Source: Acidobacteriota bacterium (GTDB lineage Bacteria > Acidobacteriota > UBA6911 > RPQK01 > JAJDTT01). From it: a stretch of DNA of 64,000 bases. The position numbers and the translations under genes were made by a program. The DNA is taken from the NCBI GenBank assembly GCA_022827025.1, contig JAJDTT010000065.1, positions 1 to 64,000 on the forward strand. The letters are read 5' to 3'. The stretch's first letter is position 1. Every line of letters starts with the position of its first letter. A model generated the notes under the pieces. The model did no database searches, was not told the origin of the DNA, and saw only the letters and a list, made by a program, of their open reading frames with translations. Shown piece by piece: positions 16,393-21,951 of the stretch.

Positions 16393-16866
16393 CTAACGAC
16401 CCACATCCCGAATCGACTTGCCAAATTCGTTTTCCCAGTCGCTGACCATCTCGAAATCGCTTTGGGTCACCCTCCAGGATCCGAACTCCCGTTCCAACAG
16501 GAAGGATTGGCGGGTGTTGCGGTCGTTGTAGACCGTCTCGGTCAGGACCCGGACCTGATCCGGACTCAGTTCCTCCTGGCCCAGAATGGCCAGACCCTTG
16601 ACGGCGGTTCCCCGCCTCCTGAGCCACTCCGACAGCCACGGCGCCGAATCCCGCGCCAACAGGTCCTCCAGGCGCCGCCTCAGGTCTCCGCCGAAGCACT
16701 CCTTGAGCGCCTCCACGTCACCGCGCTCCATGGCCTGGACCATGGCGATCAGGACGTCGTCCGGATTCTCTTCCCTTTCCGTTTCCGTGATGGGCGTCTC
16801 GCGCGTGACGAAATAGACGAAGCACCCCAGGATCGCCAGCACGGAGAACCATTTTCTGGATTCCAT
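16393..16866 (-). CDS. Small membrane-anchored NTF2-like/DUF4878-like protein
   Basis: The product is 157 residues. It starts with one hydrophobic segment (WFSVLAILGCFVYFV) and continues as a soluble domain. That domain has the pattern ENPDDVLIAMVQAMERGDVEALKECF near its start and GSWRVTQSDFEMV near its end, the usual layout of NTF2-like small ligand-binding domains that count or bind something outside the membrane. It is the last gene of the SPFH operon: a GGAG-type ribosome site precedes ATG 16866 and the gap to the preceding SPFH gene is 36 bases. Function unknown. Confidence 0.65.
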   Translation of the reverse strand: MESRKWFSVLAILGCFVYFVTRETPITETEREENPDDVLIAMVQAMERGDVEALKECFGGDLRRRLEDLLARDSAPWLSEWLRRRGTAVKGLAILGQEELSPDQVRVLTETVYNDRNTRQSFLLEREFGSWRVTQSDFEMVSDWENEFGKSIRDVGR

Positions 16867-16902: not shown

Positions 16903-17826
16903 TCAGTCCTCCACCGCGAAGATATCCAGGTCCAGACCCTGCCGGCTTCCGGCATCGTCCAGAATGACCTTGCGGGTGCGGGGCAGGATCTCTTCCATGG
17001 CCTCCAGGAAGAGGCGGGCCGTGGTGACGGTGGGATGGCGCCGGTACTCTCCCCACAGGCTCAGGAAATGCTGCGACTCGCCCTGAGCCCGGTCCACCAC
17101 CTCCCGGCCGTAGATTCGGGCCTGCTGGAGGTTTTCCTGGGCCTGGCCCCGGGTTCGAGGCAACAATTCGCTGGAGTATCCCCGGGCCTCCTGCACGATC
17201 CGGTTCCGGTCCTCCCTGGCGTTGGCCACCTCCAGGAAGGCATCGCGGACCTGTTCGGGAGGACGGACCTGTTCCAGGGCCAGGGCGGTCACGGCCACGC
17301 CCAACGCCAAGCGGTCCGCCTCGTGCTGCAGATCCTCCCGGACGCGATTCTGGATCTCGATGCGGCCCGTGGTGAGCACGTCGTCGACGCCCCGGATCGC
17401 CACGGCTCGAGAGAGGGAACGATAGAGGAGGGCCTCCAGGACCCGGGGAAGATCCTGGGACCGATACAGATACCGGCCCGGGTCCTGGATGTAGTACTGA
17501 ATGGAGGCCCGGAACCGGACCAGGTTCTGGTCGCCGCTCAACAGGGAGTCGTCCTCCGTCAGGACCCGCACTCCCAAGGCCCGGTCCAGATCGGTGCCCC
17601 CGATGGTGAGACGCTGGGCCTCGTTCGTCTTCAACAGGATCACCTCTTCCAGAGGGTACGGAAAGGCGTACTGGAGGCCTGGTTGGATCCGCTCCGGAAG
17701 CAGCCGGCCCAACCGCAACTTCACCGCCTGCCGATCGGTGGGGACATAGTAGATACCGGACGCCAGGTACAGGGCGAGAAACAGTGCCGACAGCAGCAGG
17801 ATGTTCTGTCGCAACCAGGTTCTCAC
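16903..17826 (-). CDS. SPFH/Band 7 protein, HflK/HflC-like (SPFH-1)
   Basis: This 307-residue protein has an N-terminal membrane segment (about 8-26) and then a stomatin/prohibitin-type SPFH domain, recognisable from YYVPTDRQAVKLRLGRL, GLQYAFPYPLEEV and the LVRFRASIQYYIQDP strand. A helical part ends the domain (RNRIVQEARGYSSEL...QAQENLQQARIYGREVV). In E. coli, HflK and HflC form a membrane cage around the FtsH protease. This copy resembles HflK more than HflC. Its GTG start overlaps the stop of SPFH-2 (GTGA), so the two are translationally coupled. It is the third SPFH protein of this operon; no ftsH gene is in the window. Confidence 0.85.
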   Translation of the reverse strand: MRTWLRQNILLLSALFLALYLASGIYYVPTDRQAVKLRLGRLLPERIQPGLQYAFPYPLEEVILLKTNEAQRLTIGGTDLDRALGVRVLTEDDSLLSGDQNLVRFRASIQYYIQDPGRYLYRSQDLPRVLEALLYRSLSRAVAIRGVDDVLTTGRIEIQNRVREDLQHEADRLALGVAVTALALEQVRPPEQVRDAFLEVANAREDRNRIVQEARGYSSELLPRTRGQAQENLQQARIYGREVVDRAQGESQHFLSLWGEYRRHPTVTTARLFLEAMEEILPRTRKVILDDAGSRQGLDLDIFAVED

Positions 17827-18770
17827 CGGGCCAACCTTCCGTTGCGCCCCTCGGTCAGCAGCTTGAGCAACTCCGAGTCGGCCGAGAGGACGGCGGTGGT
17901 CTTGTCGTCCAGGATTCGCTGGTACGCTTCCAGCGTCCTTACCATCTGGTAGAACTCGGGGTCCCGGGAATAGGCCCTTCCGTAGATCCGGGCGGCCTGG
18001 GCGTCCGCCTCGCCCCGGATGATCTCCGTCTGCTTGTAGGCCGCCGAAAGCAGCGCCTCGGCCTGGCGGTCCGCCTCGGCCCGGATCTTGCGGGCCTCCT
18101 CTTCCCCTTCGGCCCGGTATTTCTTGGCGATGCGGTCCCGTTCCGCCCGCATCCGGGCGTAGACGCTCTCGCGGTTCTGGGTGGGCAGATTGATCCGCTT
18201 CACGTCCACGGACGCGATCCGAATTCCGTACCGTTGGCGGGAGATCTCATCGCACTCGCGCGTGAGCTTCTCCATCACCGGCTCCAGGCGAACCTGTTCC
18301 GGGTCCGTGGCCACCAGCTCGGAAAGCTCGGTCCGGCCCAGATCGGCGGAGACCGACGACCACACGATGTCGTGCAAGCGCATCTCGGCCCCGGAGCGAT
18401 CCCCGACCGTGCGCAGGTATTGGAGCGGCTCCTGGACCTGCCAGATCACGTAGGTCTCCACCAGGAGATTCTTCTTGTCCCGGGTCAGATACTCGGACGG
18501 CCGGGGATTGTAGAGATGCAACCGCTTGTCGATGCGCGTGAGCCCCTGGAAAAACCACTTGAAACGGAGTCCCGCCTCCTTGTACTCGGCGACGGGGCGG
18601 CCGAACTGGGTGACCAGGACCATCTCTTCCTCGTTCACCGTGAACAGGCTCCGGTACGCCAGAATCAACAGGACCACGATCCAGAAGGCCTTGTTTCGGA
18701 TCACCTTTCCGGTTCGGATCATCTGCCGTTTTTTCTCACCCTCCGCGGGCGCCTTCACTGGGTAGTGCAT
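17823..18770 (-). CDS. SPFH/Band 7 protein, HflC-like (SPFH-2)
   Basis: The 315-residue product has a short cytoplasmic tail, one membrane segment (FWIVVLLILAYRSLF) and an SPFH domain with FTVNEEEMVLVTQFGRPV, a near-perfect HflC signature. The ETYVIWQVQEPLQYL strand and a long charged helix (RAERDRIAKKYRAEGEEEA) follow, as in HflC. ATG 18770 is chosen: it sits 7 bases after the stop of the ATPase-SPFH fusion and has GGGAG upstream. A longer open frame runs into the fusion gene and is not used; ATG 18722 is the shorter alternative. It probably forms a hetero-oligomer with the neighbouring SPFH subunits. Confidence 0.85.
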   Translation of the reverse strand: MHYPVKAPAEGEKKRQMIRTGKVIRNKAFWIVVLLILAYRSLFTVNEEEMVLVTQFGRPVAEYKEAGLRFKWFFQGLTRIDKRLHLYNPRPSEYLTRDKKNLLVETYVIWQVQEPLQYLRTVGDRSGAEMRLHDIVWSSVSADLGRTELSELVATDPEQVRLEPVMEKLTRECDEISRQRYGIRIASVDVKRINLPTQNRESVYARMRAERDRIAKKYRAEGEEEARKIRAEADRQAEALLSAAYKQTEIIRGEADAQAARIYGRAYSRDPEFYQMVRTLEAYQRILDDKTTAVLSADSELLKLLTEGRNGRLAR

Positions 18771-18777
18771 CTCCGAG

Positions 18778-21700
18778 TCATCTCCCGCTGGAGGAGACCG
18801 CCTTCTCCAGGTCTCCCAAGTTGAACACCGAGTTACGGAACAGCAGCATCTTCCGGCGTCCCGAGCCCTGGTCCAGGATGTACTTCTTTTTGCCCGCCAG
18901 ACCCGCCTCGACAGCCTCCAGGTAGACACGGACCCGGGTCGTCTCGGGAGACTGGCGATAAGCGCCGTAACGCAGTTCGAAGCGGCGGGATTCCCCCTCG
19001 GAACGCCGGACCCGGGAGACCGCATAGGCCCCAGCCTGGATCTGCCTGCCCTGGGCCTCGCCCGCCGCGATGGGCACCCGCTCGTTGGCGTAGGCATGCG
19101 CCTCGTTGATCATGCGGCTCTTCTGCTCCAGGGCGCTGGCCACGTCCCGGAACGCCCCCACCACCTCCAGCGCCGGATGCACGTCCAGGAGCTGGAACGC
19201 CTGGACTCGAACTCCCAAGCCCAGGCGGTCCGCCTCCGATCGCACCATCTCCATCGCCGCGCTCTCGATGGCGCGCCGGTCGAGAGCCAGAATCCGGTCC
19301 AGCTCCATGGTGGCCGCCACCTGGCGCAAGGCGCTCTCGCACAGGAACTGCAAGGTGGATTCCAGGTTCGAACTGGCGAAGAGATACTGGTGGAAGTCGG
19401 CGAGGGTGTAGTGGACGACCGCGTTCACCTCCACCAGGTACTCGTCTCCCGTGAGCATGAGCGCCTCGTCTTCCCTCCGCAGATAGCGTCCCTGGCGATG
19501 CTGAATGTTCCACTCGTAGGCGGCTGGCCCCCCTTCGGCCTCGGCCACCGAGTCGGAAATCCGGAAGCCCAGCTCCACGGTGCGGACCTGTGCGGGCCGG
19601 AGGCGGTGGAGGGTCTCCACGGGCCAGGGCGCCACGTAGTGAAGGCCAGGACCCAGCGAACCCTCGACCAGCCGGCCCAGGCGCTGGACCACTCCCACCT
19701 CCTCCGGCGCCAGCATCCGGACCCCGGAGAGCAGGTACACCAGGACGGCCGCCGCCCCGGCCCACCGCAGCAGGGACCCCTTGCGATGGCCCGCCCAGTG
19801 GAGAAAGTGCCGGAAAAGATGGGCCGGATTCCGATGGTGCAGCCAATGGAGGGCATCGTGCTGGAGATGGTGGAGGTCGTGGCGGAAATGGCGGTACCGG
19901 TGGCCCAGGTGGTGCAGCCGGTGGCGAAGCCCGTGGGGAAGAAGCTCCGACGGCCGGCGATCCAACAGCTTGAGGGAATTCATCAGGACCAGGAAGGAGG
20001 ATCCCTGGTGGACGACGGCGGCACCCACGGCGCTCAGGTACCCCCAGAAGGCGGCCATGACCGCGGCCAGGTTGAAGACCAGGCCGAACCAGAAGATGTT
20101 GTCGTGAATGGTCTTGACGGCGCGCCGGCTCATGCGGATCAACGGCTTCAGGCGGTCGAGCCCCCCATCCCCGACCAGCACCACGCCCGACGCTTCGGCG
20201 GCGATATCGGTCCCCGTGTCCCCCATGGCGATGCCCACGTGAGCGGCGGCCAGGGACGGCGAATCGTTGACGCCGTCTCCCACCATGGCCACCCGGAGGC
20301 CTTGGAGCTTGAGCTCCTCCAGGTGGGCCAGCTTCTCCTCCGGGAGCAGCCCGGCGTGCACCTGGGCGAGCCCCACCTCCCGGGCCACCCGAAGGGCCGC
20401 CTTTTCGTTGTCTCCCGTCAAGAGCAGGGACTTCCGGATCCCCAATTGGCGCAGCTCGGCCACCGCCCGGCTCGCCTCCTGCCGGGGCTGATCCTGCAGG
20501 AGGAGGACTCCCGCGGCCTGCTCTTCCCACCCGACCAGGACGGCGATGCCTCCTTCGGACGCGGCTTGATCCAGGACTTCCTGCTCCGGCTTGGAGAGGG
20601 TGACTCCCTGCTGTTCCAGGAATCGCGCGCTGCCGACCAGTACGGTGGGACCCGCCTCATCGCCGGTGGAAGGCACCGTCCCCTTCAGACCCAGACCCGC
20701 ATGCCTTTGGACCGACTCCCCGGGTGAGACGTCGAGGCCCCGGCTCCCGGCCGCCTCGCGAATCGCCTTGGCCAGCAGATGCTCGGAAAAGAACTCCAGG
20801 GAGGCCGCCCAACCCAGGATCGCGTCGGGCCGAAATTCTCCGAAGGGGATCACCCGGACCAGCTCGGGCCGGCCCCGGGTGAGGGTGCCGGTCTTGTCGA
20901 AGGCGAAGCAGTCGATCTTGGAGAGCTCCTCGATCTGGACCCCGCCCCGAACGACGATCCCTTTCCGGGCCAGGGAGCTGATGGTGGCCAGGACCGCCGC
21001 CGGCGTAGCCAGGACCATGGCGCAGGGACAGGCCACGATGAGGATCGCCACGGAGCGCATCCAGTCCCCCGTCACCACGTAGCAGAGGACCGCGATTCCC
21101 AGCACCAGGGGCAGGAACCATTGGGCGTAGCGGTCCGCCGTCCGCTGGATGGGAGCCTTGCTCTCCCGGGCCTGGCGCACCAGATCCACGATCCGGTTCA
21201 ACACCGTGGTTTCGCCCACCTGGCGGGCGCGGACCAGGAGCCGGGCGGTCTGGTTCACGCTGCCGGCGTAGACCTGGTCGCGGACCGACCGCTCCCGGGG
21301 CACCGACTCTCCCGTGATGGAGCTCTCGTCCAGGAGCGATTCCCCCTCCACGATGACGCCGTCCACCGGGACCCGCTCGCCGGGATAGACCACCACCCGG
21401 TCCTCCGGCCGGAGCTCTCCCAGCTCCACCCGCTCCTCGCCGTCGTCGCCCCAGCGGTGGGCCTCCCGGGGCAACAGCGAGAGAAGCCGGGTCAGGTCGG
21501 TGTGGAACCTCTGAGAGGCGTAGGCCTCCAACGTCTCCCCGACGAGCATGATGTAGACCACCTCGGCGGCGGCCAGGTACTCGCCCACGTAGAGGGCGGC
21601 CAGAGCCGCCAGAGTCACCGCCTGATCGGCGCTGATCCGCCGGGAGATCACGTCCTGGAATGCCCGGTGGAAGGTGCTGTACCCGTAGAGGAAGGTCAGG

Positions 21701-21864
21701 ACGATGCCCAGGTCCCAGGGGAAGGGCGAAACGATCCACTCCTGCCAGTAGGCCACCAGGAGCAGGCCCCCCAGGACCAGCCCCGCGAAGCGCCAGCGGA
21801 AGACGGCCCCTTCGTCCAGATGGAAGGTGTGTGCGAGGGGCAGGATCATGGTGGCGCCGTCCAC
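18778..21864 (-). CDS. P1B-type metal ATPase fused through a His-rich helix to an HflK-like SPFH domain
   Basis: This single frame of 1028 residues is unusual. Residues of about 20-635 form a complete P1B heavy-metal ATPase: TGES at 184-187, the intramembrane CPC at 279-281, DKTGT with the phosphorylated Asp323, GDGVND at 529-534, and a last membrane helix reading HQGSSFLVLMNSLKLL. There is no N-terminal heavy-metal-associated domain. The conserved SEHP motif reads SEHL at 360-363. Residues of about 644-694 are a linker with 17 His, spaced so that they line a helix. A new membrane segment follows at about 700-715, then an HflK-like SPFH domain (EEVGVVQRLGRL; NIQHRQGRYLR) to the C-terminus. 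The start is GTG 21864 or ATG 21849. The transported metal cannot be assigned. Confidence 0.88.
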   Translation of the reverse strand: MDGATMILPLAHTFHLDEGAVFRWRFAGLVLGGLLLVAYWQEWIVSPFPWDLGIVLTFLYGYSTFHRAFQDVISRRISADQAVTLAALAALYVGEYLAAAEVVYIMLVGETLEAYASQRFHTDLTRLLSLLPREAHRWGDDGEERVELGELRPEDRVVVYPGERVPVDGVIVEGESLLDESSITGESVPRERSVRDQVYAGSVNQTARLLVRARQVGETTVLNRIVDLVRQARESKAPIQRTADRYAQWFLPLVLGIAVLCYVVTGDWMRSVAILIVACPCAMVLATPAAVLATISSLARKGIVVRGGVQIEELSKIDCFAFDKTGTLTRGRPELVRVIPFGEFRPDAILGWAASLEFFSEHLLAKAIREAAGSRGLDVSPGESVQRHAGLGLKGTVPSTGDEAGPTVLVGSARFLEQQGVTLSKPEQEVLDQAASEGGIAVLVGWEEQAAGVLLLQDQPRQEASRAVAELRQLGIRKSLLLTGDNEKAALRVAREVGLAQVHAGLLPEEKLAHLEELKLQGLRVAMVGDGVNDSPSLAAAHVGIAMGDTGTDIAAEASGVVLVGDGGLDRLKPLIRMSRRAVKTIHDNIFWFGLVFNLAAVMAAFWGYLSAVGAAVVHQGSSFLVLMNSLKLLDRRPSELLPHGLRHRLHHLGHRYRHFRHDLHHLQHDALHWLHHRNPAHLFRHFLHWAGHRKGSLLRWAGAAAVLVYLLSGVRMLAPEEVGVVQRLGRLVEGSLGPGLHYVAPWPVETLHRLRPAQVRTVELGFRISDSVAEAEGGPAAYEWNIQHRQGRYLRREDEALMLTGDEYLVEVNAVVHYTLADFHQYLFASSNLESTLQFLCESALRQVAATMELDRILALDRRAIESAAMEMVRSEADRLGLGVRVQAFQLLDVHPALEVVGAFRDVASALEQKSRMINEAHAYANERVPIAAGEAQGRQIQAGAYAVSRVRRSEGESRRFELRYGAYRQSPETTRVRVYLEAVEAGLAGKKKYILDQGSGRRKMLLFRNSVFNLGDLEKAVSSSGR

Positions 21865-21951
21865 TATACAAGCCGGTCTGGCCGGTTCAAATGCGTCTAA
21901 ATCAAGTCCGCACCGGACTCGCGAAAAAATACGGCGCGAACGGCCGAGGCA

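Follow-up and report, generated by a model that had tools for sequence, protein, structure and literature searches.

Why should a metal pump be joined, in one polypeptide, to a protein of the HflK type? The question is raised by a gene on the minus strand of a contig from an Acidobacteriota bacterium (JAJDTT010000065.1), of which positions 1 to 64,000 were analyzed; we call this full stretch of 64,000 nucleotides the window, and all features given for it below lie on the minus strand. The gene encodes a P-type metal ATPase of the P1B group followed by a histidine-rich linker, a ninth transmembrane (TM) helix and an HflK-type SPFH domain. Our preferred reading, to which we give slightly better than even chances, is that the operon led by this gene encodes a membrane metal-exporter platform in which pumps are clustered on a cage of the HflK/HflC type.

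The fusion gene

An open reading frame ending in a stop at 18778 extends over 1028 codons from a GTG at 21864, with zero internal stops, and residues are numbered here from that GTG. The true start is likelier to be the ATG at 21849 (gene at 18778..21849, 1023 residues), because the TATAGT of a promoter-like site directly upstream of it (TTGAAC-16-TATAGT, 21863..21890, recognized only by its match to the consensus) covers the GTG, and because the congeners of this bacterium retain the Met encoded by that ATG.

The front part of the protein (residues 20-633; 19966..21807) has eight membrane helices, with the actuator, P and N domains of the ATPase on the cytosolic side. The NCBIfam profile for heavy-metal P-type ATPases, TIGR01525, covers residues 82-633 with 547 bits against a cut-off of 346, and Pfam places E1-E2_ATPase at 129-301 and Hydrolase at 317-542. 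The expected motifs are present as TGES at 184, CPC at 279-281 in TM6, DKTGTLT at 323, GDGVND at 529 and HQGSS at 619-623 in TM8, and there is no HMA domain; the profile score, the phosphorylation and hinge motifs and the CPC of TM6 together make this part a P1B ATPase. Behind the linker come a hydrophobic helix at about residues 697-715 (19720..19776; helix 695-712 in the AlphaFold2 model) and an SPFH domain with coiled coil, predicted to be periplasmic (residues 716-1006; 18847..19719). The latter is recognized by TIGR01933 (hflK) over its whole length, with 173 bits against the curated cut-off of 159, and by Band_7 (PF01145) at 720-925. In an HflK the helix ahead of the SPFH domain is expected to be the only one and to follow a short N-terminal region, whereas here it is the ninth and stands behind a complete ATPase.

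In the AlphaFold2 model a P1B fold and an SPFH fold are seen, and residues 902-971 make a long coiled coil. The closest solved relatives are CopA, ZntA and CoaT (PDB 3rfu, 4umv and 7qbz) for the front part and HflK for the back part, and among the sequence and fold matches to solved structures no PDB chain spans both. An earlier note on this DNA had described one uninterrupted frame with a complete P-type metal ATPase, then a second membrane segment and an HflK-like SPFH domain, an account with which the 1028 codons and the two profile scores agree. It knew of no described protein with this order of domains. We found no description of SPFH or HflK fused to a P-type ATPase or to a CDF transporter in the open-access literature, a search that left subscription papers, bioRxiv and InterPro outside its scope, so that an earlier mention there is possible.

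A frameshift, an assembly join or the read-through of two genes might produce such a frame, and the region 19750-19960 had been singled out as the place where this would show. We found the same frame in three congeners at 92-95% identity (four species counting that of the window), with no insertion or deletion across the junction between three of these species. In three pairwise comparisons the linker gave dN/dS ratios of 0.12, 0.26 and 0.17, compared with 0.06-0.09 for the ATPase and about 0.12 for the SPFH part. Purifying selection spans the junction, and the fusion is real and selected.

A fusion that is 42-43% identical, approximately, was found in another family of the same class (genome G028) and in 14 sampled species (one further Acidobacteriota genus). 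Metagenome-assembled genomes (MAGs) with the fusion belong, within the Acidobacteriota, to Bryobacterales, Solibacteraceae, Sulfotelmatobacter, Terriglobia and Thermoanaerobaculia, and outside it to Zipacnadia (Armatimonadota) and to a planctomycete. Surveys recovered the fusion from 13 of 201 Armatimonadota genomes, three of the copies being cut by contig ends, and from 2 of 343 Planctomycetota genomes. Independent assemblies of three phyla therefore carry it, and homologues are not, as the earlier note had allowed, always two separate genes. With one frame in four species, many independent assemblies and selection over the junction, the chance of an artefact is practically negligible. Apparent splits into two genes at two loci, L062 and L068, proved to be runs of N, read as X in the translation.

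One operon, three kinds of exporter

The fusion gene does not stand alone, and the picture first drawn of it can be extended downstream by three genes. An HflC homologue of 315 residues (17823..18770; TIGR01932, 196 bits against a cut-off of 134) starts 7 bases past the stop of the fusion, and is overlapped by 4 bases (GTGA) by a second, unfused HflK of 307 residues, here HflKb (16903..17826; TIGR01933, 199 bits). The order fusion, HflC, HflKb was seen in nearly every complete locus that we read, and the unit is conserved over the three phyla. The fourth gene (16393..16866) encodes 157 residues with one N-terminal TM helix and an NTF2-like domain. Its product matched no family in Pfam or NCBIfam profile searches; the domain was recognized through an AlphaFold2 model (pLDDT 81) and Foldseek matches to NTF2-like proteins (E about 2e-4). 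Homologues of this fourth gene are present in most P1B operons, and those of 20 P1B-fusion operons were aligned; the protein often ends in PYGTPV.

Judged from sequence, the larger find is that HflK is also fused to two further, unrelated kinds of exporter ahead of the same HflC-HflK pair. The first is a CDF transporter (PF01545), which stands ahead of HflK in the same polypeptide, with HflC and HflK encoded next, in six species: four of one genus in the class of the window (L183-L186, for instance L184:5981-7798), a planctomycete (L168:3974-5779) and Aquibium oceanicum, in which the locus lies on a conjugative plasmid (L191:5320-6867). The Aquibium copy adjoins a peptidylprolyl isomerase and a His-rich, HMA-containing P-type ATPase, and is annotated only as "FtsH protease activity modulator HflK", an example of fusions of this kind being hidden by automatic annotation. 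Among 349 Pseudomonadota genomes surveyed, no further full CDF-HflK fusion came to light.

The second is an efflux permease for copper and zinc of the SO_0444 type, again followed by HflC and HflK, in 11 of 294 Planctomycetota genomes (L225-L234, e.g. L225:3004-5235), several with a His-rich permease loop. The permease part was full length in the six proteins scanned, with 358-391 bits for NF033936 against a cut-off of 300. SO_0444 itself is required for growth of Shewanella under zinc or copper stress (PMC3219624). A congener of the window's bacterium, G003, has a second exporter-HflK operon of this type, cut by the contig end (L187:6551-10337). The CDF and SO_0444 operons share with the P1B operon the order exporter-HflK, HflC, HflK, and the HflKb of most of them falls in one clade with that of the P1B operon; they differ from it in their transporters, which belong to unrelated families. 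In neither was the NTF2-like fourth gene detected.

Could the fusion serve co-translational coupling only, fixing the stoichiometry of pump and HflK or their membrane insertion, with neither cage nor special metal handling? Adjacent genes of an operon often fuse, and by profile the SPFH parts do not differ from ordinary HflK, both of which would be expected under such coupling. The same position is nevertheless used by unrelated exporters, and an unfused second HflK is retained in nearly every operon, and we regard coupling alone as quite improbable.

The trees bear on how the exporters came to share this position. A careful tree united the SPFH domains fused to P1B ATPases in one clade (support 94/94), with the planctomycete CDF-fused SPFH domain as its sister (92/81), and placed the HflKb proteins of P1B, CDF (L168 and Aquibium) and SO_0444 (L169) operons in another (96/88), from which the HflKb of L183 and L184 fell apart. 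Such a topology suits one ancient triple-SPFH module in which the pump was exchanged, with L183-L186 possibly arising by separate events, and the shared HflKb clade is what we read as one scaffold with different pumps. The CDF fusions themselves were scattered in both a quick and the careful tree. The quick tree had suggested several independent CDF events, yet constraining the CDF fusions to a single clade gave a better likelihood, with a p-AU of 0.985 for that constraint; they may have arisen once or several times.

HflK and HflC are modulators of FtsH, and in E. coli the HflK/C complex shifts the degradation of membrane proteins by FtsH both ways (PMC12048511). A fused HflK might thus bring FtsH to the pump, so that turnover follows the metal load, or the pump might report the metal state to FtsH, clustering being secondary. 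In this respect five genomes (G028, G396, G397, G398 and G401) are of interest, since the only HflK genes that score above the TIGR01933 cut-off in them are the two of the fusion operon, whose cages may be the only HflKC of these cells. The genome of the window, by contrast, retains a separate canonical HflK on another contig (C211); among the loci read none showed an FtsH gene, though no systematic search for one was made; and turnover alone leaves the fusion of unrelated exporters unexplained. Protease control seems to us unlikely, if the most substantial of the alternatives to an exporter platform.

Histidine tracts, the metal and the direction of transport

The linker (residues 634-700; 19765..19965), predicted to be cytosolic, holds 17 His between residues 644 and 693, compared with 19 in the remaining 961 residues of the protein. 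Their spacing is mostly i,i+3/i+4, so that they would share one face if the linker is helical. AlphaFold2 placed helices at 644-675 and 680-693 with low confidence (pLDDT about 56-64). The helix of about 50 residues with 17 His proposed in the earlier note is thus right in its histidines and short in its length, which is about 60 residues, the helix itself being a prediction of low confidence.

All four species of the genus keep 16 of the 17 His, and linkers in the genus have 17-19 His per 67 residues. The 20-odd other P1B fusions have 0-3 His at this place, and a His-rich linker as a feature of the whole family was rejected on that account. Similar tracts recur elsewhere: at the N terminus of the ATPase in loci L146-L150 and L172, at the N terminus of HflC in L146-L150, L067 and the Burkholderiaceae loci described below, and in a loop inside the SO_0444 permeases, where 18 of 40 residues are His in the richest case (L232). 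With the usual topology, the tracts of the ATPase and of HflC would face the cytosol, as the linker is expected to. Together with the conserved linker they support, without proving, a cytosolic role in collecting, buffering or delivering metal. Of the idea that the linker buffers or senses metal, the buffering part gains from the conservation of the linker in the genus and from the recurring tracts; it does not apply to the fusions in general. Two upstream neighbors may be recorded here: directly upstream of the fusion gene, L064 has a NicO-like nickel/cobalt transporter (L064:5325-6098, Pfam above cut-off) and L146 a similar membrane protein with a His-rich loop and no assigned family (L146:7431-8186).

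The fused ATPases formed one clade (SH-aLRT 96-100), separate from CopA/SilP, CadA and HmtA-like ATPases, and characterized by the pair CPC in TM6 and H-Q/E-x-x-S in TM8. Since H-Q-x-x-S matches neither the Cu/Ag (MxxSS) nor the Cd/Zn (DxG) references in the alignment, the TM motifs do not assign the pump to Cu, Zn or Co. By its His, TM8 recalls P1B-4 pumps, and this His makes a divalent metal (Zn, Co or Cd) somewhat more likely than Cu+.

Counterparts in which pump and SPFH proteins are separate genes give some information on regulation. In Pseudomonas aeruginosa, the locus PA2434-PA2439 comprises the P-type ATPase HmtA and three SPFH genes, and is 5.6- to 14-fold up in a znuA mutant (PMC4542158); Zur binds, with zinc, the promoter of PA2439, the first promoter of the locus (PMC8531726), and zinc depletion raises proteins of the locus, HflC included (PMC11761036). 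Two Burkholderiaceae plasmid loci have the order HflK, HflC, SPFH, P-type ATPase (L188:7182-13234 and L189:7101-13113), both with the His-rich HflC N termini mentioned above and with a long HflK in which about 270 hydrophobic residues without assigned family precede the SPFH domain.

These loci raise the possibility that the fused ATPase resembles HmtA in importing or rescuing metal during starvation, and that its SPFH partners serve uptake. The Zur-bound promoter and the response to zinc depletion would agree with acquisition or recycling of this kind, as would the zinc (Znu-type) ABC transporter and PCu(A)C that adjoin L188, one of the two plasmid loci. The Burkholderiaceae HmtA-like ATPases, however, are only about 33% identical to that of the window, have HNVGT rather than HQxxS in TM8 and lie outside the fused clade, in a clade of their own, and the window's gene is fused, which sets it apart from a locus of the HmtA type; moreover, the CDF and SO_0444 partners come from exporter families. 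We consider metal acquisition distinctly improbable for the fusion.

A proposed exporter platform and known systems

A connection of metal transport with an SPFH scaffold, proposed when only the fusion gene of the window was in view, is strengthened by the CDF and SO_0444 fusions, which have the same operon position, and by the split locus under Zur control. On our reading as an exporter platform, both ends of the ATPase would be cytosolic, the linker would lie in the cytosol and the SPFH domain in the periplasm, as in E. coli HflK. SPFH domains of the HflK type lie on the periplasmic side, and a cage of HflK and HflC is for this reason the expected scaffold, not a flotillin raft. In a ring in which HflK and HflC alternate, the fused HflK would fill part of the HflK positions and the unfused HflKb the rest, giving room to the bulky pumps. 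Pumps would then be clustered and stabilized under or beside the periplasmic dome, with the exported metal leaving into the dome or next to it, and in the genus of the window the stripe of His may gather cytosolic metal near the pump entry. Pump and scaffold together might in this sense be called a membrane "microdomain".

Some results weigh against such a platform. Most P1B fusions have no His-rich linker. HmtA was reported as an importer that is up in zinc depletion (PMC4542158; PMC8531726), and export should therefore not be assumed for all such loci. In mycobacteria the P1B pump CtpC clusters with PacL1, and flotillin is not required (PMC9374683); an SPFH scaffold is therefore not the only route to a pump platform.

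A bolder extension is that HflK/HflC-type cages are general metal-transport compartments, several phyla having repeatedly welded exporters to one HflK of a three-SPFH operon, with metal released inside the dome or at its rim and there held, sensed or passed on. We put this forward tentatively, as possible but short of an even chance. What SPFH cages contain, and what cargo they organize, is a long-standing question, and here evolution ties one subunit covalently to metal exporters, so that the fusions offer a directly testable function for an assembly of the HflK/HflC type.

Among known systems, E. coli HflK and HflC, which act with FtsH, build from alternating subunits a cage or open nautilus that stands over the membrane in the periplasm (PMC12048511). 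They share with the window adjacent HflK- and HflC-type SPFH genes above the NCBIfam cut-offs, and differ in that the helix of the fused HflK in the window is preceded by a whole metal pump and that the operon has three SPFH genes instead of two. CopA, ZntA and CoaT have the TGES, CPC, DKTGTLT and GDGxND motifs in common with the ATPase of the window, which departs from them in having no HMA domain, HQxxS in TM8 and a C-terminal SPFH domain. The PacL1-CtpC zinc efflux platform is alike in that a P1B pump is clustered in the membrane, its partner PacL1 consisting of one helix and a metal-binding motif; unlike the partner in the window, PacL1 is not an SPFH protein.

The P. aeruginosa and Burkholderiaceae loci come close in gene content, with a P-type metal ATPase beside three HflK/HflC-type SPFH genes, although there ATPase and SPFH proteins are encoded separately. 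A 2026 deletion of three operonic SPFH genes of P. aeruginosa, PaFlo5-7, was tested for motility, biofilm, oxidative stress and virulence (PMC13086221). As the one triple-SPFH operon of this species, PaFlo5-7 would correspond to PA2437-2439, and the fusions suggest that this triple-SPFH locus beside HmtA belongs to metal handling.

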